38,052 nucleotides of DNA from Burkholderiales bacterium. Its GTDB lineage: Bacteria; Pseudomonadota; Gammaproteobacteria; Burkholderiales; Thiobacteraceae. Position 1 is the first letter of the stretch. Each line of letters opens with the position of its first letter. The translations under genes and the position numbers were made by a program. The notes under the pieces are model-generated. The model had not been told where the DNA came from. It did no database searches and saw nothing but the letters and a program-made list of their open reading frames with translations. The stretch is taken from positions 1 to 38,052 of the forward strand of contig JAIMAL010000023.1 of the NCBI GenBank assembly GCA_023511995.1, read 5' to 3'. This document shows, one piece after another, positions 5,621 to 31,838 of this stretch.

Positions 5621-7471
<1,851 letters not shown>

Positions 7472-7472
<1 letters not shown>

Positions 7473-7918
7473 CACGTGAGATGGCGGAGGAGTTCCAGGG
7501 AATAGCGCCGGCCCGCCAGATGGTCCTCCACGCAGCGGCTCACCAGGGGGCTGCGGTGTTGCGCGGCCTGGGCGCGAATTTCCTCCGGCGTCAGCCACAC
7601 CGTGCGCACGATGCCCGCATCGAGGGGGCGCGTGGGATCGAAGTCTACGATCTCGCCGGCGAAGGCGAAGCGCAGATAGGTGATGGCTTTTGCGGGATGC
7701 GGCCAGCGGTAGATGCCCACCAGCGCCGTGGGCTGGAAGTGATAGCCGGTCTCCTCCAGGGTTTCCCGTATTGCGCCTTCGATGAGGGTTTCGTGCTGCT
7801 CCCAATGGCCCGCCGGCTGATTGAGCACCCGGGTGCCGCTGACGTATTCCTCCACCAAAAGGTAGCGTCCCTCGTGCTCCACCACGGCGGCCACGGTGAC
7901 ATGGGGTGTCCAGATCAT
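7472..7918 (-). CDS. nudJ: Nudix hydrolase NudJ
   Basis: A 148-residue Nudix hydrolase. The Nudix box runs from Gly37 to Tyr59 with all key positions present: G37, E43, then REtlEEtGY (R51, E52, E55, E56, G58), which bind the divalent metal for diphosphate hydrolysis. The identification as NudJ, a phosphatase for HMP-PP and nucleoside di/triphosphates, comes from length, sequence character (start MIWTPHVTVAAVVE) and the neighbourhood shared with E. coli, where nudJ lies between rluE and mnmA. It follows marC after 12 bases and shares one base with the next gene. Confidence 0.9.
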
Positions 7919-7930
7919 GGATGCTTGGTC

Positions 7931-8569
7931 TTACGCGAGTCGGGGGAAAAGTTCCATGAGGCCGCGGGCAATGGTTTCCACCGCCATGGCCGCCAGGATC
8001 AGGCCCATGAGCCGGGTGACGATGTTGAGGCCGGTGCGGCCCAGCCGGCGGGCGATGCGGCTGCCCAGCAGGAACACCCCCCACACCACCAGGGTGACGG
8101 TGATGATGGGAATGAGGAGCAGCACATGGCCCAACAGATCGCCATGACGGAACTGGTGGGCGGCGATGATCACCGAGGAAATGGCGCCGGGGCCGGCAAG
8201 CAGAGGCACGCCCAGCGGCACCACACCAATGGCCTGGCGGTCGGCCACCTCCACCGCTTCTTCTGGCGTCTGGCGGATGGGACTTTCCCGGGCCTGCAGC
8301 ATGGAGATGGCAAGCAGCAGAATGAGGATGCCGCCACCCACCATGAAGGAGCCGATGCTCACGTTGAAAAAATCCAGGAGCCGGTCACCGAGGAAGGCGG
8401 CCAGCATGAGCACCAGAAACACCGTGAGGGCCACGGTGCGCGCGGTGCGGGCGCGTTCCCGTGCCGGCCAGCCGCGGGTGGCCCCGATGAAGACGGGAAT
8501 GCCGCCAAAGGGATTGACGATGGCAAGCAAAGCCACGGTGATCTTGAAGAGCTGTTGCCATTCGTGCAT
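7931..8569 (-). CDS. MarC family integral membrane protein
   Basis: A 212-residue inner-membrane protein with about six hydrophobic segments, of the MarC/YchE family (PF01914). Diagnostic sequences are VALLAIVNPFGGIPVF in the first membrane segment and GVVPLGVPLLAGPGAIS in the middle, which is the family's most conserved region. The family has no firmly established transport substrate. The start at 8569 (MHEWQQLFKI) was chosen because the frame upstream overlaps rluE and reads as shadow sequence. It lies 20 bases after rluE and 12 before nudJ. MarC is not in the corresponding E. coli row, so it is an insertion into an otherwise familiar gene order. Confidence 0.9.
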   Translation of the reverse strand: MHEWQQLFKITVALLAIVNPFGGIPVFIGATRGWPARERARTARTVALTVFLVLMLAAFLGDRLLDFFNVSIGSFMVGGGILILLLAISMLQARESPIRQTPEEAVEVADRQAIGVVPLGVPLLAGPGAISSVIIAAHQFRHGDLLGHVLLLIPIITVTLVVWGVFLLGSRIARRLGRTGLNIVTRLMGLILAAMAVETIARGLMELFPRLA

Positions 8570-8589
8570 CAAAGGATTCCCACAAATCG

Positions 8590-9159
8590 CTATTTTACCT
8601 GCCGCAGGCGGTGTGATGGGAGGCGCACCTCGCGCCACTCGCCCGGGGCCAGTCCTTCCAGGGTCCACGGCCCCACCGCCCAGCGGATGAGGCGCAGGGT
8701 GGGGTGGCCCACCGCAGCGGTCATGCGGCGCACCTGACGGTTCTTGCCTTCGCGCAGGATGACGGTGAGCCAGCTCGTTGGAATGTGTTTGCGAAAGCGC
8801 ACCGGCGGATGCCGCGGCCACAGGTGCGGCGGTTCTGCCATGGGCCACACCTCCGCCGGCAGGGTGACGAAGTCCCCGAGGTTCACGCCCTGCCGCAGCT
8901 TTTCCAGCGCCCGCTCATCGGGAATGCCCTCCACCTGCACCCAGTAAGTCTTGGGCAGTTTGTGCCGCGGGTCGGTGATGCGGTGATTGAGCCTGCCGTC
9001 ATCGGTTAAAATGACCAGCCCTTCGCTGTCCGTGTCCAGCCGACCGGCGGGATAGACGCCGGGCACCCGCACGTAGTCTTTGAGGGTGGAGTGCCGGCCG
9101 TCCGGGCGGAACTGGCAGATCACCCCATAGGGCTTGTTGAGCAGAATCAGACGCGACAT
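8590..9159 (-). CDS. rluE: 23S rRNA pseudouridine(2457) synthase RluE
   Basis: A 189-residue pseudouridine synthase of the RsuA/RluB/E/F family without the S4-like domain, as in RluE, which modifies U2457 of 23S rRNA. The catalytic motif is [20 protein letters not shown], with Asp42 as the nucleophile. [11 protein letters not shown] opens the protein, and [18 protein letters not shown] is the conserved C-terminal motif. The start [10 protein letters not shown] at 9159 is preferred over an open frame beginning at 9225, since the extra residues match no family member. It diverges from icd across a 99-base gap, exactly as in E. coli. Confidence 0.92.
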
Positions 9160-20525: not shown

Positions 20526-21686
20526 TTGTTTCGGAAAGTTGCGCTTTATCTCGGGGTCTGGGGCGTGGTCGCGGCCGCGGTGTGGTGGGGTGGGCCGGTG
20601 CCGGGCCTCCTCGCCGTGGCCGCTGCCGGCGCGGCGGGGCTCCTTCTGGTCATCCGGGCACGGCCGCCGGCATCCCCGCCGGTGCCGAATGTAGCGGCGG
20701 GTCAGTCGGTGGCGGGGGTGCGGGTCGCGGTGGAGGCCTGCCAGCGTGAGGCGCGGACCCTGTGCCGGGCCGGCGTCGAAGATCTGGACCGGGTCAAGGC
20801 CCTTTCGGCGGAGGCCATCGAAAAACTCACCGGTAGCTTCGGCGGCATGCACGCCAAGATCCAGCACCAGCGGGACCTGGCGCTGGCCATCGCCCGCGGC
20901 GCCGCGGGGGAGCTCAATGGCGGCCACCACGTGAGCTTTGCCGAATTTGTCGGTGAGACCCAGGCGACCCTGGATGCCTTTGTCCAGAACACGCTGGAGA
21001 ACAGCAAGTTTGCCGTGGAGCTGGTGGAGGTGATGGAAGGCATCAACCGGGAAGCCAGCGCCATGCTGCGTATCCTCGATGAAATCGAAGGCATCGCCAA
21101 GCAGACCAACCTGCTGGCCCTCAATGCAGCCATCGAGGCGGCGCGGGCGGGTGAGGCGGGGCGTGGCTTTGCCGTGGTGGCGGACGAGGTGAGGGCGCTG
21201 TCGGAGCGGACCAATCACTTCAGCCAGCAGATCCGCGGCCGCATGGATACGGTGCACAACGATCTTAAGCGGGCGAGCCAGTCCATCCAGACGGTGGCGG
21301 CGGTGGACATGAGCTTCGTTCTGCAATCCAAACAGCGGGTGGAGGAGGCCATGCGCCACCTGCAGGAGCTCAATGGGGACATGGCCCGCGCCGTGCAGGA
21401 GATCGACAGGTTGGCTGGCGAGGTGGATGCGGACGTCAACCAGGCGGTCACCGCGCTGCAGTTCCAGGATTTGTCCAGCCAGTTGATCGGCCATGCGCAA
21501 AGCCGCATCCAGGGCGCCGAGGCGGTGCTGGAAAGTTTCCTCCACGGGCTGGAAGAGCAGCTGGAGCTCGACGCCGCCCTGCAGCAGGCGCTCGAGCGGG
21601 TCCGGCAGACGGTCGCCGGGCTCGATGAGCGCCGCAGCCCGGTGAGCCAGCAGAGCATGAGCGCTGGCGAAATCGAATTGTTCTGA
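20526..21686 (+). CDS. Membrane-anchored receptor-like protein with CheZ-like motif
   Basis: A 386-residue protein. Residues 5-22 and 26-44 are two membrane segments with almost no periplasmic loop, so it has no ligand domain. Residues about 187-229 are the receptor signalling hairpin ([20 protein letters not shown] and [15 protein letters not shown]). Further on, residues 312-321 read [10 protein letters not shown], matching the D-x-x-x-Q catalytic pattern of CheZ (FQDLTGQ); here Asp315 and Gln319. The C-terminus is SAGEIELF. It may therefore sit in the array through its hairpin and dephosphorylate CheY-P, which is encoded directly downstream; the phosphatase part is inference. The start is a TTG at 20526 behind a strong GGGAGGAGG. 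It is first in the che cluster, 14 bases before cheY. Confidence 0.85.
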
Positions 21687-21700
21687 AGCGAGGTACAGCC

Positions 21701-22066
21701 ATGGGGAAAGTCGTATTGACAGTCGATGATTCTGCTTCCATCCGGCAGATGGTGAGTTTCACCCTGAAAAGCGCCGGCTACGAGGTGGTGGAAGCGGCGG
21801 ATGGCGAAGAGGGCCTGACCAAGGCCAAGGGGCGGACGGTTGATCTCGTGCTGACCGACCAGAACATGCCGAAAATGGACGGCCTGACCCTGATCAAGAG
21901 CCTGAGGGGGCTGCCCCAGTATCGATCGACGCCGATTCTGATGCTCACCACCGAGTCTTCAGAGGCGATGAAATCCGCCGGCCGCAGCGCCGGAGCCACT
22001 GGTTGGCTGGTCAAGCCCTTTGACCCCAGCAAGCTCCTCGAGGTGGTGAAGAAGGTCATCGGCTGA
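21701..22066 (+). CDS. cheY: Chemotaxis response regulator CheY
   Basis: A stand-alone receiver of 121 residues. The acidic pair Asp9-Asp10 (TVDDSAS), the phosphoacceptor Asp53 (VLTDQNMPKMDG), the Thr in MLTTES and the Lys in LVKPFDP form a complete phosphorylation site. LTDQNMP is typical of CheY proteins in this type of cluster. It would be phosphorylated by CheA and carry the signal to a motor or another target. AGCGAGG precedes the ATG. It lies between the receptor-like protein and cheA. Confidence 0.95.
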   Translation: MGKVVLTVDDSASIRQMVSFTLKSAGYEVVEAADGEEGLTKAKGRTVDLVLTDQNMPKMDGLTLIKSLRGLPQYRSTPILMLTTESSEAMKSAGRSAGATGWLVKPFDPSKLLEVVKKVIG

Positions 22067-22105
22067 ACTGCCGCAACGAAGAACAAGAAAGCGAAGGAAG
22101 GCGCG

Positions 22106-24277
22106 ATGAGCATCGATTTGAGCCAGTTCCATCAAGTGTTCTTCGAGGAGGCGGCGGAGCATCTGGCGAGCATGGAGACGCTGCTTCTGGCGCTTAATCT
22201 GGCCTCGCCCGCGCCGGACGACCTGAATGCCATTTTCCGTGCCGCCCATTCCATCAAGGGGGGCAGCGGTACCTTCGGCTTCACCGACATGACAGAGGTC
22301 ACCCATGTCGTGGAGACCCTCCTGGACAAGGTGCGCAAGGGCGAACTGACATTGACGGCGGAAATGGTGGATGCGTGCCTTGCCGCCGGCGATGTGCTCA
22401 AGGCCCAGCTCAGCCAGCATCAGGGCGGCCCAGCCGTGGAGGAGGAACTGGTGCGGGACATCGTCGCCCGCCTGGAGGCGCTGGCGAGCGGCAGCGCAAA
22501 GGGGCGCGCAGACGCCGGGGCAAAAGTCCGCTATGGAATCGAATGCACGCTGACCCGTGACTGCGCGGGGGAAGCAGCTTGTGTGGAAAACCTCCTTTCG
22601 GCCTTGAAGGAGCTGGGCGACTGCCAGCTCCTCGCCCCCGCCAGCGCGGAAAACCCGCGCCTTGCCCTCTGGCTCGACACGGAGCGGGAGCCGGCCGCAA
22701 TCCGCGAAGTGCTCGAGTTCTATGCCCCATCGGAGGAGATTCGCATCGAAGCGCAGCCTGCGGCGGCGGATGAGGGAGGCGGGGAAGCCTGGGGGCTTTT
22801 TGCCGAGGCACCGGGTGCGCCGGCGCCCAAGGAGGAAGCAGGCGCGGCCTATGGCTTCTTCAGCGACGCGCCTGGCGCTCCGGCGCTAAAGGAGGAGGCA
22901 GGCGAGGGTTTCGGCTTTTTCACCGACGCGCCGGGCGCGCCAGAGGGGAGTCAGGCGGCACAAAGCGCTGCGGTTGCTGCGCCTTCGCCCGCCTCGGCGC
23001 AAACGCCGGCGGGTGCCAAAGCGGCAGAGGCAAAGGACACCCGTCCGCGACCCGTCGCGGCGGTTTCCCTGGAGACATCGAGCATCCGGGTGTCGGTGGA
23101 AAAGGTGGATCAGCTCATCAACCTGGTGGGGGAACTGGTGATCACCCAGGCCATGCTGGCCCAGTCGGCCAGCATCCTCGACCCAGTGCATGCGGAGCGC
23201 GTCCTGGCGGGGATCGACCTTTTGTCCCGCAACACGCGGGACCTGCAGGAGGCCGTCATGTCCATCCGCATGCTGCCCATGAGCACGGTGTTTTCCCGTT
23301 TTCCGCGGGTGGTGCGGGATCTCGCCAAGAAGCTGGGCAAGGAAGTGGAGCTGAAGACCATCGGCGAGAGCACCGAACTGGACAAGGGCCTCATCGAAAA
23401 AATCACCGACCCCCTCACCCACCTGGTGCGCAACAGCCTCGATCATGGCATCGAGGCGCCGGAGGTGCGTGAAGCGGCGGGCAAGCCGAGAAAAGGCACC
23501 CTTACCCTCAAGGCCTCTCACCAGGGGGGCAAGATCGTCATCGAAGTGATGGACGATGGCGCCGGTCTCAATCGCGCCAGGATCCTCGCCAAGGCGCGGG
23601 AGCGGGGTTTGCCGGTGAGTGATGCCATGGGCGACGCGGAAGTGTGGCAGCTCATTTTCGCGCCGGGTTTTTCCACGGCGGAGGCGGTGACCGAAGTGTC
23701 GGGCCGGGGGGTAGGCATGGACGTGGTCAAGCGCAACATCGAAGCCCTTGGGGGCCGCGTGGAGTTGGAATCCTCGCCCGGTTTCGGCACCCGTGTGGTC
23801 ATCAGCCTGCCCCTCACCCTCGCCATCCTGGACGGCATGTCGGTGCGCGTGGGCAGCGAGACGTACATCGTCCCCCTTACCGTGGTGGTGGAGTCCCTGC
23901 AGCCCCGCCGCGAGGATATCCGCACCATCGCCGGCCAGGGGCGGGTGGTGGCCATCCGCGGCGAATACCTGCCCCTCATACCGCTCGCCGAGGTCTTCGC
24001 CGTACCGGGGGCGCTCCATGAGGCGAGCGAGGGCATCCTCGTCGTCGTCGAGGGCGAAAGCGGCAAGGCGGCGCTGCAGGTGGACGAACTGTTGGGCCAG
24101 CACCAGGTGGTGATCAAGAGCCTGGAGACCAATTACCGCAAGGTCGAGGGCATATCCGGCGCCACCATCATGGGGGATGGCCGGGTGGCGATGATTCTCG
24201 ACGTCTCTGCTTTGACCCGCATGGGCCTGCGCCTCACCCGGCAGGCCAAGGCGCCGGCCGAGACTTTGCCAGCATAA
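22106..24277 (+). CDS. cheA: Chemotaxis histidine kinase CheA
   Basis: A 723-residue CheA. P1 (residues 1-105) has His48 in [15 protein letters not shown], the autophosphorylation site. Residues about 140-220 form a P2-like CheY-binding domain. Residues 227-281 are an unusual triple repeat (see separate entry), followed by an Ala/Pro-rich linker. P3 begins at [18 protein letters not shown]. The P4 ATPase has [14 protein letters not shown] (N box), VMDDGAGLN (G1) and [10 protein letters not shown] (G2). P5 is a CheW-like domain ending near the C-terminus. All catalytic motifs are intact. GCGAAGGAAGG precedes the ATG. It receives input from the receptors through CheW and phosphorylates CheY and CheB. 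Confidence 0.97.
22784..22942 (+). repeat. Three 60-bp in-frame repeats in the cheA linker
   Basis: Three tandem copies with a 60-base period encode [36 protein letters not shown] and [11 protein letters not shown]. The aromatic-Gly-hydrophobic-Phe core and the acidic-APGAP tail are kept although many third codon positions differ, which suggests selection on the peptide, not a recent duplication. Confidence 0.85.
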
Positions 24278-24287
24278 GGGAGAGAGC

Positions 24288-24782
24288 ATGGAACAGACGA
24301 ACGTACCGATGACGGAAGGCCGGCTGCCTGCGGGCTCGGGGGAGTATCTCACCTTCACCCTGGGCAGGGAGGAGTACGGCATAGACATCCTCAAGGTGCA
24401 GGAAATCCGCGGCTACGAGCAGCCGACCACCATCGCCCACGCTCCGCCCTTCATCAAGGGTGTGATCAATCTGCGCGGTGTCATCGTGCCCATCATCGAC
24501 CTGCGCATCAAGCTCGACGTGGGCACGGCGACCTACGACCAGTTCACCGTGGTCATCATCCTCAACGTCGCCGGGCGCGTGGTGGGTATCGTCGTCGATG
24601 GCGTGTCGGACGTCATCCAGCTCGGCGCGGAAAACCTGCGCCCACCCCCCGATTTCAGCTCCGTGCTGGATACCCGCTACATCCTGGGCCTGGGCACGGT
24701 GGATGAGCGGATGATCATCATCGTCGATATCGAAAAACTCATGACCAGCCGCGACATGGCCCTGGTCGAGGAAACCGCCTGA
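24288..24782 (+). CDS. cheW: Chemotaxis coupling protein CheW
   Basis: A 164-residue CheW scaffold that links receptors to the P5 domain of Che[21 protein letters not shown] opens the first beta-barrel, and [20 protein letters not shown] is the family's most conserved stretch, containing the NLRG motif with the receptor-contact Arg. [11 protein letters not shown] and the final [11 protein letters not shown] are also typical. GGGAGAG lies before the ATG at 24288. It is 10 bases after cheA and is followed at once by the ribosome site of the receptor gene. Confidence 0.96.
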
Positions 24783-24796
24783 AAGGAGGCATGACC

Positions 24797-27142
24797 ATGC
24801 GCATCAATCTTCCCGTGACCAATGTCGAACGCATCATGCGCGATGGCGAGTACATCGTGTCGCGCACCGACACGCGCGGCATCATCACCTACGCCAACCC
24901 CTATTTCTACGAAATCAGCGGCTTTTCCGAGGCGGAGATCATTGGCCAGCCCCACAACGTGGTGCGCCATCCGGATATGCCGGTAGAAGCCTTCAAGGAC
25001 CTGTGGGAGACACTGCAGGCGGGCAAACCCTGGACGGGCTATGTGAAAAACCGCTGCAAGAACGGGGATCACTACTGGGTGGTGGCCAACGCCACACCCA
25101 TCTGGGAAAACGGCCAGATCACCGGCTACCTTTCCGTGCGCACCAAGCCCGATCGCGCGGCGGTGGAGGAAGTCAGCAAGATCTACGCGAAATTCAAGGC
25201 CGGGGAGGCCAAAGGTCTGCGCATCCAGGAAGGCAAAGTGGTGCGCACCGACGCCTTCTCCCAATTCCTGCGCCGCCTGCGGGACATGCCGCTGGCAACC
25301 AAGATCAACGCCCTGGCCGCCTATTTCCTGCTGCTCGCGGTGGGGGCGGGCCTGGGCGGCGCCCTGTTCGGGGCAACGGTCGGGGACACCATTGCCATTG
25401 CCGGTGGCGTCGTCGGTTTCGTTGGGGCGGCACTGATCCGGCGTGGCCTCAAACCCCTGCAGGTGCTGACCAGGCAGATGCGCCAGGTCTCCCAGGGGGA
25501 CTTCAGCGTCATCGTCGCCAAGGAGGCCAATGACGAGATTGGCGCCATGACCGACGCCTTCCGCTCCCTCTACATCCGTCTGGGCGATGATCTGGCCCGT
25601 TCCCGCCAGCAGGCGGAGGAAATGCTGCGGGTCAAGATTGCGCTGGACAATGTGAGCACCGGGGTGATGATTGCCGATGCCGAGCGCCGGATCATCTACC
25701 TCAACCGCGCCGTGCAGTCCCTGCTGAAAAACGCCGAGGCGGACATCCGCAAGGATCTGCCCAACTTCAACGCCGACAGGCTGCTGGGGGCCAGCATCGA
25801 CCAGTTCCACAAAAATCCCCAGCATCAGGCGCAGATGCTGGCGCAACTCAAGGGCACCCACACCGGTCGCTTCGAGCTGGGGGGCCGCAGCATGATGGTG
25901 CGCGCAAGTCCGGTGCTGGACGAAAAAGGCAACCGTCTGGGCGCGGTGGCGGAGTGGACCGACCGCACGGCGGAAGTGGCGGTGGAGCGCGAGGTGGCGG
26001 CGCTGATCGAAGCGGCCGCCAGCGGGGATTTGAGCCGGCGCCTCAAGGTGGAGGACAAGGAAGGCTTCTTCCGCCAGCTCTCCGAAGGCATCAACCGTTT
26101 GGTGGAGACCACCGAGCGCGGCCTGAACGACGTGGCGCGGGTGTTGGGGGCCCTTGCCGAAGGCGACCTCACCCAGCGCATCGAGGCCGACTACCAGGGG
26201 CTCTTCGGCGCCCTGAAAGAGGCCACCAACACCACCTGTGACCGCCTGCAGGAGATCGTGACGCAGATCCGGGAGGCAACGGATGCCATCAACACCGCCG
26301 CCCGCGAGATCGCCAGCGGCAATGCCGACCTCTCCGCGCGCACCGAAAGCCAGGCCTCCAGCCTCGAGGAGACGGCAAGCAGCATGGATGAGCTGACCTC
26401 GACGGTGAAACAGAACGCGGAGAACGCGCGCCAGGCCAACCAGCTCGCGGTGGGCGCCTCGGAAGTGGCGGTCAAGGGCGGCACCGTGGTGGGCGAGGTG
26501 GTGCAGACCATGAACGCCATCGCCGAAGCGTCGAAGAAGATCGCCGATATCATCACCGTGATCGACGGTATCGCCTTCCAGACCAACATCCTCGCCCTCA
26601 ATGCCGCCGTGGAGGCGGCACGGGCCGGCGAGCAGGGGCGAGGTTTCGCCGTCGTCGCCGGCGAGGTGCGCAACCTCGCCCAGCGCAGCGCCGCGGCGGC
26701 CAAGGAGATCAAGCAGCTCATCTCCGATTCGGTGGAGAAGGTCAACGACGGCTCCAAGCTGGTGGAGCAGGCCGGCGCCACCATGGATGAAATCGTGCGC
26801 GCGGTGAAGCGGGTGACCGATATCATGGGCGAGATTTCCGCGGCCAGCGCCGAGCAGAGCCAGGGCATCGAGCAGGTGAATGCCGCCGTGGCGCAGATGG
26901 ACGAAATGACCCAGCAGAACGCCGCCTTGGTGGAAGAGGCGGCCGCCGCCGCGGAAAGCCTGCAGGATCAGGCGGATGGTTTGGCGCGGGCAGTGAGCGT
27001 GTTCAAGCTGGCCACCGCCGGCAGCCGGACACCGGCACCACTGCGCGCGGTGCCGGCACGAAGCGAACGCAAAAGCCCCGAAGCCGCCCGCCCGCGCCCG
27101 AAACTGGCCGCCTCGGGGGACGACGAGTGGGAGGAGTTCTGA
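24797..27142 (+). CDS. Aer-like PAS chemoreceptor with CheR/CheB tether
   Basis: A 781-residue methyl-accepting protein. The N-terminal PAS domain (residues 1-120) closely follows E. coli Aer, including VRHPDMP with Arg57, His58 and Asp60, the residues linked to FAD binding, and [14 protein letters not shown]. This suggests redox or energy sensing. Two adjacent membrane segments (about 172-190 and 194-214) are followed by HAMP-like sequence, a second PAS (about 280-390), another HAMP-like stretch and the signalling domain ([20 protein letters not shown]). It ends in DDEWEEF, a good match to the C-terminal pentapeptide that tethers CheR and CheB. The ATG at 24797 is preferred over 24791 because AAGGAGG lies 7 bases before it and only one base before the other. 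Confidence 0.93.
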
Positions 27143-27247
27143 TTCAGGTTACAGGGGACAGGGGACACGTGTTCCGTCTCCCCGGCACTCTGATCCCTGA
27201 CCGCTGATTTCTGCTTCCCGACACCTGATACCTGAAGCCCGAGAGCA
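27143..27247. repeat. Degenerate CTGA/CAGGGGA low-complexity intergenic sequence
   Basis: The gap between the receptor gene and cheR holds ACAGGGG twice in direct succession, then a run of variants of CCTGA (CTGATCCCTGACC, CTGATTTCTG, ACACCTGATACCTGAAG). It encodes nothing and resembles the dispersed CCTGA-rich spacer repeats of many proteobacterial chromosomes. No promoter is evident, so the upstream transcript probably continues into cheR. Confidence 0.6.
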
Positions 27248-28156
27248 ATGTCGCCCACGGTCAGCCGCGAGTTCGAATTCACGCCCCGGGACTTCGCCGA
27301 AATCCGCGCCCTCATCCACAGCCACGCCGGCATTTATCTGACCGATGCCAAGATGGACATGGTCTACAGCCGGCTGGCGCGGCGGCTGCGGGCCACGGGG
27401 CTGAAAACCTTTCGCGATTATCTCGCGCGGCTGAAAAGCGGCGACGAGGCGGAATGGGAGGCCTTCGTCAATTCGCTCACCACCAATCTCACCGCCTTTT
27501 TCCGCGAGGCCCATCACTTCGCCATCCTCCGCGAATTCCTGGCGGAGCGCCCGGCGCGGCCCATCACCATCTGGAGCGCGGCCTGCTCCACGGGCGAGGA
27601 GGCCTACTCCATCGCCATGACCGCGGCGGAGGTGTTTCCCAACGATCCGGGCCGGGTGCGGGTGATTGCCTCCGACCTCGACACCCAGGTGCTGGCGCGG
27701 GCACGGGAGGGGATCTACCCCCTGGAAAAGGTGGAGCGGCTGAGTGTGGCGCAGCGGCAGCGGTTTTTCCTCAAGGGCAAGGGGCAGCGGGCGGGATTCG
27801 TGCGCGTGCGGCCGGAGATCCAGGCCATGGTCAGCTTCCTGCGGGTCAATCTGCTGGATCCGGTTTGGCCCGTGCGCGAGCCGCTGGATGCCATCTTCTG
27901 CCGCAATGTGATGATCTATTTCGACAAGCCGACCCAGTACCGCATCCTGCAGAAAATGAAGCCGTTGCTGAAGCCGGATGGCCTATTGTTCGTGGGACAC
28001 TCGGAGGCGCTCTATCACGCAGCCGATCTTTTCCGCCTCAAGGGGCAGACGGTGTATGTGCATGCCGAGGCGGCCGCGCACGGCCTGCGGCACGGACAGC
28101 GGCACGCCCAGGGGATGGTTCGCGCCGGCGGCCAGGCGCAAGGGCACGCAGGATGA
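27248..28156 (+). CDS. cheR: Chemotaxis protein methyltransferase CheR
   Basis: A 302-residue CheR, which methylates glutamates on the receptors using SAM. The N-terminal helical domain runs to about residue 80 (SLTTNLTAFFREAHHF marks the junction). The SAM-binding loop is WSAACSTGEEAYSIAM. DAIFCRNVMIYFD and PDGLLFVGHSEAL are conserved in the catalytic domain. The C-terminal 30 residues (HGLRHGQRHAQGMV and on) are a His/Gly/Gln-rich extension not needed for the fold. A tethering pentapeptide on the neighbouring receptor suggests a pentapeptide-dependent CheR. Its stop overlaps the cheD start (ATGA). Confidence 0.96.
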   Translation: MSPTVSREFEFTPRDFAEIRALIHSHAGIYLTDAKMDMVYSRLARRLRATGLKTFRDYLARLKSGDEAEWEAFVNSLTTNLTAFFREAHHFAILREFLAERPARPITIWSAACSTGEEAYSIAMTAAEVFPNDPGRVRVIASDLDTQVLARAREGIYPLEKVERLSVAQRQRFFLKGKGQRAGFVRVRPEIQAMVSFLRVNLLDPVWPVREPLDAIFCRNVMIYFDKPTQYRILQKMKPLLKPDGLLFVGHSEALYHAADLFRLKGQTVYVHAEAAAHGLRHGQRHAQGMVRAGGQAQGHAG

Positions 28157-28773
28157 AGCGGCGCATGGCAGCCCAGCACCTGGAGGAGATCCGTGCTCCG
28201 AACCACTATTACGACCGCACCTTCGACATCGAGGCGGTCAAGCTGCTGCCAGGGGAGTATTACGCCACGGGGCGCAACATGCTGCTGGTGACCGTGCTGG
28301 GTTCCTGTGTCGCCGCCTGTCTGCGCGATCCCGTGAACGGGATCGGTGGCATGAACCATTTCATGCTGCCGGAAGGGGGCGACCCCCATGATCTGCGCTC
28401 GGCCTCGGCCCGCTATGGCGCCTATGCCATGGAAGTGCTCATCAACCAGTTGCTCAAGCTGGGCGCGAGCCGAAGCCGCCTGGAAGCCAAGGTGTTCGGC
28501 GGTGCAGCGGTGCTCAAGGGTATGGAGAGCGTCAATGTCGGCGATGCCAACAGCGAATTCGTGCTGGATTTCCTCGCCAATGAAAAAATCCCCGTCCTGG
28601 CGGAAGACCTGCGGGGACCATATCCGAGGAAGGTGTATTTCTTTCCAGCCACGGGCCGGGTGCTGGTGCGTAAACTGAAAAATCTGCACAACGACACCAT
28701 CATCGAGCGCGAGCGCGACTACAAGAAGCGCCTCACCCGCGCGCCGGTGTCGGGTGAAGTGGAGCTGTTCTGA
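28153..28773 (+). CDS. cheD: Chemoreceptor glutamine deamidase CheD
   Basis: A 206-residue CheD, which deamidates specific glutamines of receptors. The catalytic Cys52 lies in [11 protein letters not shown] and His69 in [20 protein letters not shown] is another conserved block. After the catalytic domain the protein ends in PVSGEVELF, nearly the same as the end of the first protein of the cluster (SAGEIELF). In Bacillus CheD also stimulates the CheY-P phosphatase CheC, but no CheC is encoded here. The start at 28153 overlaps the cheR stop; an ATG at 28165 is an alternative. The stop shares one base with cheB (TGATG). Confidence 0.95.
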
Positions 28774-29819
28774 TGTCCCGCAAGATACGCGTCCTGGTGG
28801 TGGACGACTCGGCGCTGATGCGCCGGCTGCTTACCGAGATCATTGGTTCCTTCCCCGACATGGAGGTGGTGGGGACGGCGCCCGATCCCTATGTCGCGCG
28901 CGAGCTCATCAAGAGTCTCGATCCCGATGTGCTCACCCTGGATGTGGAAATGCCGCGCATGAATGGGCTCGAGTTTCTGGAAAAGCTCATGCGCCTGCGG
29001 CCCATGCCGGTGGTGATGCTCTCCAGTCTCACCGAGCAGGGCTCGGAGGTCACCCTGCGGGCACTGGAACTGGGCGCCGTGGATTTTATCGCCAAACCCA
29101 AGCTGGGACTGGCGGAAGGGATCACCGCGGTGGCGGAGGAGATCGCGGAGAAGATTCGCGCGGCCGCCCACGCCCAGGTGCGGCGGGCGGCGCCCGCCCG
29201 GCAGCCGACGGTGCTCGCCGGCAGATTGTTCGGGACCACGGAAAAAATCGTCTGCATCGGTGCCTCGACGGGCGGCACCGAGGCCATCAAGGAAATCGTC
29301 TCCCGCATGCCGGGGGACGCCCCTGCGCTCCTCATCACCCAGCACATGCCGGAGGGCTTCACCCGCTCCTTCGCCGAGCGCCTCGACCGCCTGTCGGCGA
29401 TGACCGTGAAGGAAGCCCAGCATGGCGAGCGCGTGCTGCCGGGTCATGCCTACGTGGCCCCCGGCCATTCCCACCTCCTGGTGCGCAGAGGTGGCGCCTA
29501 CTATTACACCGAGCTTTCCCAGGCACCGCCGGTGAACCGCCACCGCCCTTCCGTGGACGTGCTGTTCCAAAGTGCGGCGGAGACCCTGGGCCCCAATGCG
29601 GTGGGGGTCATCCTCACCGGCATGGGGCGCGACGGGGCGGAGGGCCTGGCGGCGATGCGCAAGGCCGGGGCTTACACCCTGGCCCAGGATGAGGCGACCT
29701 CCGTGGTCTGGGGCATGCCCAAGGCCGCGGTGGAAATGGGCGCGGCGGCCGAGGTCTGTCCCCTGCCCCAGATCGCCGGACGAATCCTTGACTACCTGGC
29801 CGGCGCCAAGGGCGGCTGA
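28773..29819 (+). CDS. cheB: Chemotaxis methylesterase CheB
   Basis: A 348-residue CheB with a receiver domain (Asp10, Asp11 and phosphoacceptor Asp57 in [11 protein letters not shown]) and a C-terminal methylesterase domain. The catalytic triad is Ser165 (IGASTGGTE), His191 (TQHMPEGF) and Asp287 (GMGRDGAEG). It removes methyl groups from receptors when phosphorylated by CheA, giving adaptation together with CheR and CheD. The ATG at 28773 shares one base with the cheD stop, so the two are translationally coupled. Confidence 0.97.
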
Positions 29820-29842
29820 ACGACAACGAAAGGAGAACTGCC

Positions 29843-30151
29843 ATGCAGATACCGGTTCAAACCGAAAACGGGCGGGCGCGCCTGCGCCTCGATGGCCGTT
29901 TCGACTTCAGCGTGCATCGGGAATTTCGCGATGCCTACATGCCCCTCCTCGAAGACAATTCGGTGCGGGAGATCGTTATCGATCTGGGGCGGGTGGAGTA
30001 TGTGGACAGCTCGGCGTTGGGCATGCTGCTGCTTCTGCGGGAAAGGGCGCAGACTTCAGGCAAGCAGGTTGTCTTGAGCGGCGCCCGGGGCACGGTCCGC
30101 CAGGTTCTGGAAGTGGCCAACTTCGGCAGAATGTTCACCATCGAGGGCTGA
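29843..30151 (+). CDS. STAS-domain anti-sigma-factor antagonist (HsbA-like)
   Basis: A 102-residue single STAS domain of the SpoIIAA/RsbV type. The phosphorylatable serine lies in the conserved motif YVDSSALGMLLLLRE, at Ser56 or Ser57. Such proteins bind an anti-sigma factor or other partner only when dephosphorylated. AAAGGAGAA precedes the ATG at 29843. The next gene, one base after its stop, encodes a protein with both a PP2C phosphatase and a HATPase kinase domain, which could set the phosphorylation state of this serine. The pair recalls HsbA/HsbR of Pseudomonas, where the STAS protein binds FlgM or a diguanylate cyclase; the partner here is unknown. Confidence 0.9.
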   Translation: MQIPVQTENGRARLRLDGRFDFSVHREFRDAYMPLLEDNSVREIVIDLGRVEYVDSSALGMLLLLRERAQTSGKQVVLSGARGTVRQVLEVANFGRMFTIEG

Positions 30152-30152
30152 A

Positions 30153-31838
30153 GTGACCGAGAGTTCCCTCACCATCCTCATCGTCGATGATGCGACTGCC
30201 AATCTCAAGCTTGCGGAAAAAGTCGTCCAGCAGCTCGGTCACCGCGCCGTCCTCGCCCATGACGGGGAGGAGGCCCTGCAACGCTTCGACGAGGTACAGC
30301 CTGATCTGGTGTTGATGGACGTGATAATGCCGGTCATGGACGGCATCACCGCCACCCGCGCCCTGCGTCAGCGTCTTGCCCACACTGCCCAGCATGTGCC
30401 CATCCTCCTCCTTTCCGCTCTGGATGGTACGGATGACGTGCTGCGGGGCCTCGAGGCCGGTGCCGATGATTACCTGCCCAAGCCCATCAACGTGGCCATC
30501 CTCCAGGCCAAGCTGCGCAATTTCGCCCGTCTGGTGGAAAGCCAGCGACAGCTGGCGCGGCAGAACGAGGAGCTCGCGGACAGGCGGGCCCGCGCTGAAG
30601 AAGAAGCGCAACTGGCCGCCCATGTCTTGACTCACCTGACGGACCGGGAAGACACCCACGATCCCCAACTGCGGATCTACCAGGTGCCCTATGGGGAGGT
30701 GAGCGGGGACCTGGTGTGTGGGGCGCGTACCCCTGCCGGTGTGCTGCACGTGCTCCTTGCCGATGCCACCGGTCATGGTCTGCCCGCCGCGCTTTCTGCG
30801 CTTCCGGTGACGGACGTGTTCCACAGCATGACGGCAAAGGGTTATTCCGTGTCGGCGATTGCCCGGGAGATCAACCGCAAGCTCAAGCACCTGTTGCCCG
30901 TGGACCGTTTCGTCGCCGCCACCCTCATCGCCGTGGATGGGGCGCAACAGGTCGTCGAAATCTGGAATGGCGGCAACCCGGATGTGGTCTGGCGCGATGG
31001 CAGCGGCAAGGTAACCCGTTTCCGCTCCGCCCATCCGCCGCTGGGGATCCTGCCGGAAAAGGATTTCTGCAGTCAGCCGCAAGTCTTCACGTACACGCTG
31101 CCGGGTGAACTCATCGTCTGTTCCGACGGCCTCATCGAAGCCGAGTCGCCGGAGGGCAGACCCTTTGGCCTGGAGGCGGTCATCGCAAACGCCACGGCGG
31201 AAGGCAAAGGCTTGCAGGCCGTGGTGGGGGCCTTCGAGGCGCATCTCGGCGGCGGGCCGCTCCACGACGATGCCACCCTGCTTTTCATCGGGCTGCCGCA
31301 GCAGTGCCAGGTGGTCTCCGTCGCCGTTCCCCCACAGGAGAGGGGGGCGGAGAGCACCGGCTATCGTCTTGGCCTCTGCCTTGGCCCCAGCGAGCTTCGT
31401 CAACTGGAGGTGGTGCCGGGCGTGATGGATTTTCTGATGCGCATTCCCGCCCTGAAACCCCATCAGGGTGCGCTTTTCGTGGTCCTTTCCGAATTGTTCA
31501 ACAATGCCCTGGATCACGGGGTGCTGGGCCTGGATTCCCGCCTCAAGGCGGAACCAGGCGGCTTCGAGCGCTATCTCCAAACGCGTATCGAACGCCTCTA
31601 CACCCTGCAGGAGGGCAAGATCGAGTTACAGTTCCACCTGCACAATGTGGAAGGCGGCAATGTGCTCGATGTCACCATCACAGACAGTGGCCCGGGGTTC
31701 GACTACGGGGCGTATTTGGGGGAACCCTTGACCCATGATCGTCCCCATGGGCGAGGCATCGCCTTGGTGCGCAGCCTCTGCTCGGAACTCGTCTATTCCG
31801 GTGTGGGCAACAGCGTGCGCGCCCGTTATGCGCTGTAG
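30153..31838 (+). CDS. Receiver-PP2C phosphatase-HATPase protein (HsbR-like)
   Basis: A 561-residue three-domain regulator. The receiver (residues 1-125) has Asp12-Asp13 and phosphoacceptor Asp56 (LVLMDVIMPVMDG). A coiled-coil linker (about 128-155, REQ/E-rich) leads to a SpoIIE/RsbU-type PP2C phosphatase with EVSGDLVCG, LLADATGHGLPAAL and HDDATLLFIG metal motifs. The C-terminal HATPase resembles RsbW/SpoIIAB kinases: VVLSELFNNALDHGV, ITDSGPGFDYG and HGRGIALVRSL. It would dephosphorylate and phosphorylate the STAS partner encoded just upstream, with the receiver deciding the balance. The start is GTG at 30153, one base after the STAS stop. It is the last gene of the che cluster. Confidence 0.92.
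   Translation: MTESSLTILIVDDATANLKLAEKVVQQLGHRAVLAHDGEEALQRFDEVQPDLVLMDVIMPVMDGITATRALRQRLAHTAQHVPILLLSALDGTDDVLRGLEAGADDYLPKPINVAILQAKLRNFARLVESQRQLARQNEELADRRARAEEEAQLAAHVLTHLTDREDTHDPQLRIYQVPYGEVSGDLVCGARTPAGVLHVLLADATGHGLPAALSALPVTDVFHSMTAKGYSVSAIAREINRKLKHLLPVDRFVAATLIAVDGAQQVVEIWNGGNPDVVWRDGSGKVTRFRSAHPPLGILPEKDFCSQPQVFTYTLPGELIVCSDGLIEAESPEGRPFGLEAVIANATAEGKGLQAVVGAFEAHLGGGPLHDDATLLFIGLPQQCQVVSVAVPPQERGAESTGYRLGLCLGPSELRQLEVVPGVMDFLMRIPALKPHQGALFVVLSELFNNALDHGVLGLDSRLKAEPGGFERYLQTRIERLYTLQEGKIELQFHLHNVEGGNVLDVTITDSGPGFDYGAYLGEPLTHDRPHGRGIALVRSLCSELVYSGVGNSVRARYAL

Follow-up and report, generated by a model that had tools for sequence, protein, structure and literature searches.

How is the CheY-P signal ended in an F7 chemosensory cluster that has no cheZ of its own? 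No explanation was found in the portions of the literature examined, and the McpA-like receptors are puzzling in print: their genes stand among those of F7, the F7 array does not require them, they are reported in the F6 array, and the role of their strikingly conserved C-terminus is given as unclear (available part of PMC7184735). The question is raised here by a receptor-like gene lying just ahead of cheY in the window, by which we mean the whole stretch of 38,052 nt that was analysed (Burkholderiales bacterium, Thiobacteraceae; assembly GCA_023511995.1, contig JAIMAL010000023.1, positions 1-38,052, forward strand). E. coli CheZ contains the stretch FQDLTGQ with the catalytic residues Asp143 and Gln147; its Asp orients CheY, and its Gln is catalytic and positions the water. 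Judged from the sequence, the receptor is rather probably an McpA-like receptor of an F7 cluster with a built-in, putative CheZ-like CheY-P phosphatase site, whose catalytic activity we infer. A receptor-embedded site of this kind would explain both the role of the McpA-like receptors and the ending of the F7 signal. If this is true, receptors would control the kinase and also remove the kinase's product, and CheZ-type catalysis would be built into, or derived from, the receptor bundle.

The receptor and its cluster

The cluster comprises ten genes, all on the same strand, assigned mainly by Pfam:

20526..21686, + strand: McpA-like membrane receptor with a CheZ-like DxxxQ motif (386 aa, TTG start; MCPsignal 6.5e-31; 132-member family)
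21701..22066, + strand: cheY, F7 type, the proposed substrate (Response_reg 6.1e-29; equivalents of K26, N59 and E89 present)
22106..24277, + strand: cheA (Pfam)
24288..24782, + strand: cheW (Pfam)
24791..27142, + strand: Aer2-like PAS/HAMP receptor, C-terminus DDEWEEF, of the CheR-tether type (Pfam; tail inspection)
27248..28156, + strand: cheR (Pfam)
28153..28773, + strand: cheD, C-terminus VSGEVELF (CheD 2.6e-32; start codon chosen by hand)
28773..29819, + strand: cheB (Pfam)
29843..30151, + strand: STAS-domain protein of the anti-sigma-factor-antagonist type (Pfam)
30153..31838, + strand: response regulator (REC)-SpoIIE phosphatase-HATPase protein, the final gene of the cluster (Pfam)

The Aer2/cheYAWRDB gene content around the receptor is that described for F7 in the available part of PMC7184735, and the cluster is F7 (Aer2-type), a class given by gene content and not by a class-specific model. 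Relatives in Vibrio (L047, L051) and Salinimonas (L053) lie in clusters of equal gene content. The REC-SpoIIE-HATPase protein (30153-31838), 3' of the STAS gene, forms a partner-switching output module at the cluster end. As an earlier note on this DNA had it, cheY is the next gene, its start lying 14 nt 3' of the receptor stop codon. The same note had stated that cheZ, cheC, cheX and fliY are missing; by Pfam assignment none of the four is indeed found among the genes from 20526 to 31838, and the statement stands for the cluster. It does not stand for the genome, which has a true cheZ on another contig (see below).

The receptor reading frame starts with TTG, with GGGAGGAGG just upstream, and encodes 386 aa with the following features:

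20529..20588, + strand: first predicted membrane helix, residues 2-21 (AlphaFold helix)
20595..20660, + strand: second predicted membrane helix, residues 24-45 (AlphaFold helix)
20814..20840, + strand: conserved N-helix stretch A97-L101-F105 (F105 in 119/124, L101 in 112/123 and A97 in 101/123 sequences)
21084..21212, + strand: receptor signalling hairpin, residues 187-229 (Pfam MCPsignal; invariant columns in the family alignment)
21462..21482, + strand: CheZ-like motif F313-Q-D315-L-S-S-Q319 (D315 in 124/124, Q319 in 123/124; at 313, 120 F and 3 Y in 124)
21642..21683, + strand: C-terminal tail, residues 373-386, a putative docking peptide common to CheD (F386 in 123/124; CheD tails)

The Pfam MCPsignal match extends over residues 160-310 (6.5e-31), with the hairpin core at about 193-215, in line with the signalling hairpin that had been placed in residues 187-229. 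The AlphaFold model (mean pLDDT 76, pTM 0.36) consists of helices 2-21, 24-45, 62-126, 138-344 and 348-368, followed by a low-confidence tail; its first two helices are consistent with the two membrane segments, and no ligand domain, described earlier. The motif FQDLSSQ (residues 313-319), whose codon coordinates 21462-21482 proved exact, lies in helix 138-344, and had been expected in a predicted helix. The stretch A97-L101-F105 is probably opposite the motif within the bundle, as judged from helix lengths. With a simple hydropathy threshold, 124 of the 132 members of the family have a hydrophobic N-terminus. By a similarly crude hydropathy test, L186, L187 and L190, from genomes without a CheZ match, and L031 have no obvious membrane segment.

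The model (pTM 0.36) predicts a long helical hairpin, and its best PDB matches in a fold search are MCPs (2ch7_B, Z 14.6 over 280 residues, rmsd 3.4); a CheZ structure is absent among the fold matches listed, which is evidence neither way. Pfam lists neither a CheC nor a CheX domain for the receptor. Its HisKA_3 match is weak (E=0.11) and covers residues 59-101, away from the motif. Weak matches to DUF948 and other coiled-coil Pfam families were set aside as helical look-alikes.

Conservation of the motif in the receptor family

By itself, the motif is near chance, with three DxxxQ occurrences in the receptor against 1.1 expected from composition, so that its significance rests on conservation. 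The family was delimited with a profile of 16 relatives against 236 receptor-like ORFs, of which 132 scored at least 209 bits and the rest at most 153 bits or not at all. A class-wide profile search gave matches in 139 of 276 genomes, many to ordinary receptors, and the stretch around each match at E 1e-60 or better was taken. Scoring was limited to ORFs of at least 200 aa in which a hairpin could be recognised, and duplicates, defined by identical last 150 residues, were merged. An 80% identity filter removed eight sequences and brought the 132 members to 124. Two alignments, A1 with 20 relatives hand-picked from 60 related genomes and A2 with 15 picked from 80 loci, were also used. The one other genome of the window's genus has no orthologue of the receptor; the match that scored best there (E 3.4e-22) extends no further than residue 291.

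Among the 124 non-redundant members (below 80% identity), D315 is invariant and is the sole invariant residue outside 170-245; Q319, Q312 and the C-terminal F386 are kept in 123 sequences each. The sole exception at Q319, an Arg in L244, comes from a match with two in-frame TGA codons, that is, an interrupted gene. Position 313 is Phe in 120 of these sequences and Tyr in three, and 314 is Glu or Gln in 115, while over all 132 members residue 310 is Ser or Ala in 108. The Asp is placed 111 residues past the hairpin Glu in 130 of the 132 and 112 in the other two. At identities of 30-47%, every one of the 20 relatives from the 60 related genomes has Q312-F313-Q314-D315 and Q319; in the 15 relatives from the 80 GTDB loci (Vibrio, Stenotrophomonas, Alteromonas, Salinimonas and others), position 314 varies and Q312, F313, D315, Q319 and F386 are kept. 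D315 and Q319, together with Q312 and F386, are thus the most conserved residues outside the hairpin, which is the outcome that the main check proposed in the earlier note called for, and as far as sequence conservation goes, the observation is much stronger than the earlier note could know.

Ordinary receptors provided a control. Among the 104 non-family ORFs, five were too short for the offset test; in the remaining 99, an Asp stood at the equivalent offset in 20, a Gln four residues on in 23 and both in ten, and a Phe or Tyr two residues before the Asp in none. The position is thus not alien to receptors, and it is the fixed F-x-D-x-x-x-Q that marks the McpA-like family; the idea of a motif unique to the family was rejected on the same ten sequences, none of which has F/Y at -2.

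This control also bears on another explanation, in which D315 and Q319, with Q312, form an adaptation or structural site, modified by CheD, CheR or CheB or serving in packing, with no action on CheY. Q312, counted from the hairpin Glu, is level with the methylation site Glu493 of Tsr. Moreover, the cluster includes cheD, cheR and cheB, and ten of the 99 ordinary receptors, nine of them with a 147-residue C-arm, have [IV]xDxxxQ at an equal offset. Methylation sites, however, swap Gln and Glu, whereas 131 of 132 members have Gln at 319 and none has Glu, and an invariant Asp315 is needless for methylation. The E/Q pair usual at such sites is lacking, residue 318 being Ser, Arg, Thr or Asn in most members, and the Asp has a bulky LQ[FY] before it. 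At a bundle-packing position, conservative exchanges should be tolerated. We regard an adaptation or structural site as unlikely. Both D315 and Q319 lie on the membrane-proximal part of the C-arm, where ordinary receptors have their methylation sites, and a phosphatase site there could sense the bundle packing that adaptation controls.

CheY as candidate substrate, CheZ elsewhere and the array

In the proposed mechanism, the CheZ-like active site would lie in the membrane-proximal helical bundle, with Asp315 orienting CheY-P and Gln319 placing the attacking water next to the phospho-aspartate of CheY. Held at the membrane, the receptor dimer would serve as the CheY-P phosphatase dedicated to a pathway that lacks CheZ, possibly tuned by the packing state of the receptor. 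The motif, its nearly complete conservation, the order of the genes, the occurrence of both receptor classes beside a cheY and the conserved N59 and E89 of those CheYs are observed, whereas the catalysis, the choice of CheY as substrate, the control by receptor state and the role of the tail are what we infer.

Under the script's criteria, a CheY gene lies within 500 nt 3' of the receptor on the same strand in 51 of 132 cases, a number that leaves out L055 and L196, in which the cheY frame extends further into the receptor gene. The next gene encodes a STAS protein for 40 of the 132, and neither CheY nor STAS was found for 41, partly owing to short stretches. All 51 adjacent CheYs have N59, T87, E89, W106 and K109, and 42 of them K26. 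In a first set of 40 loci, N59 and E89 occurred together in 29/29 adjacent CheYs vs 0/17 other receivers, the latter comprising nine CheB-like proteins (none with N59, three with E89) and eight others (four with N59, none with E89). The F6 CheY also has N59 and E89, and these residues therefore mark the type of CheY and not the use of an McpA-like receptor.

Two receptor classes could be recognised. In class 1, the residue after the Asp is mostly hydrophobic and the tail ends in ELF (70) or DLF (22). Class 2, with Arg316 in 31 of the 132 members, mostly has FQDRxxQ, a tail in TFF in 20 of 31, and a place just ahead of cheY within a che cluster whose gene content differs; CheY was directly 3' of 9/9 class-2 receptors in the early set. 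Residue 58 of the adjacent CheY is Val, Leu or Ile with Arg316 receptors (28/28) and mostly Gln with the others (21/23), a pairing that follows the two classes and may reflect shared ancestry only. In an observation apart, a class-2 cluster (L060) lies on a contig labelled Klebsiella pneumoniae, from a metagenome bin, and the label looks doubtful.

In the genome of the window, a true cheZ (G000:C3:72551-73141, 256.7 bits) stands on a different contig, next to a cheY and a cheA of its own, in a second cluster with cheY, cheZ, cheA, CheW-REC proteins and two receptors that is F6-like by content; CheC and CheX gave no match at E<=0.001 in this genome. A soluble receptor with a zinc-binding CZB domain (L011, 15705-16832 on contig C3) adjoins this cheZ-containing cluster. 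Within the window's order, CheZ was found in 26/26 genomes chosen for the search, of which only a part carry the receptor. Class-wide, the search covered every genome, other than the window's, whose family match reached E 1e-60 or better; CheZ was present in 66 of these 72, one of the 72 (G139) having an interrupted receptor gene. The suggestion that the receptor replaces CheZ was accordingly rejected on the co-occurrence in 26/26 and 66/72 genomes.

The six genomes without a CheZ match (E<=0.001) all keep the receptor's Asp and Gln; CheC is absent in all six and CheX is present in two. Four of them (G119, G236, G130 and G325, the last alone among the four having CheX) have the receptor inside a che cluster. 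In another CheZ-less case (L185), there are only two receiver-domain proteins nearby in 17 kb, and the L188 receptor (7397-8617), from a genome without a CheA match (G248), keeps both residues (FDDAARQ) and has lost the conserved tail. The receptor is thus no stand-in for CheZ, yet it persists without CheZ. The earlier note had regarded a dedicated cheZ co-occurring elsewhere as evidence against its proposal, and such a gene does co-occur, in the window genome and in the 66 genomes above; being located, in the window genome, in a separate cluster with its own cheY, it weakens the phosphatase idea and does not refute it. The reading of the receptor as a receptor-borne CheY-P phosphatase accordingly gains from the conservation of D315 and Q319 and from an adjacent CheY with N59 and E89 in 51/51 cases, and loses from the cheZ genes found elsewhere.

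The location of the receptor is a further point. In the available parts of PMC7184735 and PMC7534058, the F7 array is intact after deletion of the McpA-like receptor in V. cholerae and P. aeruginosa, and an earlier study cited there placed McpA in the F6 array; the heights given are 25 nm for F6 and 38 nm for F7 (PMC7534058). From the AlphaFold model, we estimate that the helical arm between the tip and residue 60, about 146 residues, measures about 22 nm, nearer to the F6 height of 25 nm than to the F7 height of 38 nm, which would be in line with the published F6 location. That the receptor localises signal termination to the array, as had been put forward, is doubtful for the F7 array in view of the deletion results and the F6 placement. 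According to a printed statement, McpA-like receptors always adjoin the F7 cluster; four McpA-like receptors with the tail GAGTVELF (L049, L155, L157 and L158, one named Stenotrophomonas) run counter to this, with no che genes in their stretches (some 15 kb in the case of L049 and less in the other three).

The F6 location also suits a different substrate: the receptor could dephosphorylate another receiver, be it the F6 CheY that acts at the motor or the cluster's own REC-SpoIIE-HATPase protein, and would couple pathways rather than close the F7 one. The published F6 placement (available parts of PMC7184735 and PMC7534058) and the fit of the ~22 nm arm to the 25 nm F6 array rather than to the 38 nm F7 array (PMC7534058) agree with it, as do the STAS and receiver-bearing genes 3' of the receptor in many clusters. 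The adjacent F7-type CheYs, however, keep N59 and E89 in 51/51 cases, with E89 in 0/8 of the other non-CheB receivers, and the F6 CheY is already served by CheZ, so that we hold this choice of substrate to be quite improbable and retain the adjacent CheY as the candidate.

Likeness to CheZ, the C-terminal tail and known systems

The CheZ signature, AxxFQ and DxxxQ in a logo from more than 1800 CheZs, is fitted position by position as AxxFQDxxxQ by the family context [AS]-L-Q-[FY]-[QE]-D-x-x-x-Q (available part of PMC7750401). Beyond the motif, similarity is weak. The Pfam CheZ model (PF04344) gave the receptor 14.3 bits, below its cut-off of 30.7 (E=0.038, residues 271-350), and was listed for 3 of 16 A2 members, at best with E 0.0024. 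In hhalign comparisons with CheZ, P was 0.0034 for 31 family members (probability 9.5%), 0.005 for nine class-2 members and 0.17 for 60 ordinary receptors, the control being 60 of 80 such receptors and one sequence, L061, class 1 by tail, having been moved by hand to class 2. With a CheZ HMM, the medians were 4.35 vs 1.2 bits for 40 family and 80 ordinary sequences, and an Asp was aligned with CheZ position 143 in 24 of the 40, while the best ordinary receptor (13.6 bits) exceeded the best family member (12.7). A six-frame search of the 72 genomes with the CheZ Pfam model gave nine sub-threshold matches, four of them in family genes (G259, G263, G157, G247) with coordinates covering the motif; in one genome such a match had E 9e-5 to 2.3e-4. 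As the hhalign and HMM comparisons include the motif itself, they are no test of homology apart from it. Homology to CheZ in sequence was not accepted: the motif is often in register, significance was not reached, and an ordinary receptor outscored the best family member. We therefore speak of a CheZ-like site and make no claim of common descent.

The C-terminal tail, GEIELF in the window receptor, ends in the near-invariant F386 (123/124) and has Val or Ile at the aromatic position of the CheR tether in 118/124 members; it is thus a conserved C-terminus without the tether aromatic. The CheZ-type CheY-P-binding helix VDxLLxxLGF was not found in the receptor. A role of the tail as such a helix, 67 residues after the Gln and with a terminal Phe, was considered and dropped, peptides of the same type terminating 18 of 26 CheD proteins. 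The ends of CheD (28750-28773) and of the receptor (21663-21683) are indeed alike ([VI][ED]LF), and both proteins end in ITFF in L243, in a class-matched manner. The tail is best read, from these shared termini, as a putative docking peptide for a partner common to CheD, and receptor and CheD may dock on one partner.

A C-terminal residue as conserved as the motif (F386, 123/124), in a tail common to CheD, invites the idea that the motif likewise binds CheY-P as a sink or scaffold, with no catalysis. The Gln, however, which is catalytic in CheZ, would be needless for binding and is nearly as conserved as the Asp, which makes a mere binding site highly improbable in our view. Extending the preferred reading of a phosphatase site, we put forward, as a speculative and rather doubtful scheme, that the two receptor classes with CheZ-less clusters are signal-regulated CheY-P phosphatases, with a receptor-tipped, CheZ-like dimer bundle gated by packing; being reported in F6 arrays, McpA might drain F7 CheY-P at the motor-side array, coupling the two pathways, and the class-matched tail of CheD might bind the same partner as that of the receptor.

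Among known systems, the receptor resembles CheZ (PF04344) in that both have AxxFQDxxxQ on the second arm of a hairpin of helices and, after it, a peptide at the C-terminus. In the receptor, 67 residues separate the Gln from the C-terminus (58-89 after the motif across the family), as they do in E. coli CheZ. The receptor differs from CheZ in the signalling tip on its hairpin, its N-terminal membrane anchors, its Pfam score under the cut-off and its tail, GEIELF vs VDELLESLGF in the CheZ of the window genome. HisKA_3-type DxxxQ phosphatase motifs act on receiver domains by a spaced Asp/Gln chemistry; the receptor motif is like them in this spacing and unlike them in lying outside any kinase dimerisation domain.

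Among receptors, McpA-like proteins of F7 were described in 2020 (Ortega et al., PMC7184735, available part) with a conserved C-terminus and a role stated as unclear. We found no statement on a CheZ motif in McpA-like receptors in the open-licence literature, preprints being outside this scope (available parts of PMC7184735, PMC7534058, PMC7750401, PMC11253619 and PMC11940527), and no published report, in the same literature, of phosphatase activity of these receptors. The window receptor is like PA0180/CttP and VCA1088 in gene content, transmembrane region, hairpin and a C-terminus without the CheR-tether aromatic, and unlike the accounts of PA0180 and VCA1088 in its CheZ-like motif, which is not mentioned in the available part of PMC7184735. 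In V. cholerae, VCA1088 (F7) and VC1394 (F9), of which little is known, are both of class 24H, alike in topology and both encoded with core genes (available part of PMC7534058); matched by this published description alone, they may be representatives of our two classes. VC1394 shares McpA topology and a place among core che genes with the family described here, and, compared by description, is perhaps of the same kind as class 2 (PMC7534058, available part).
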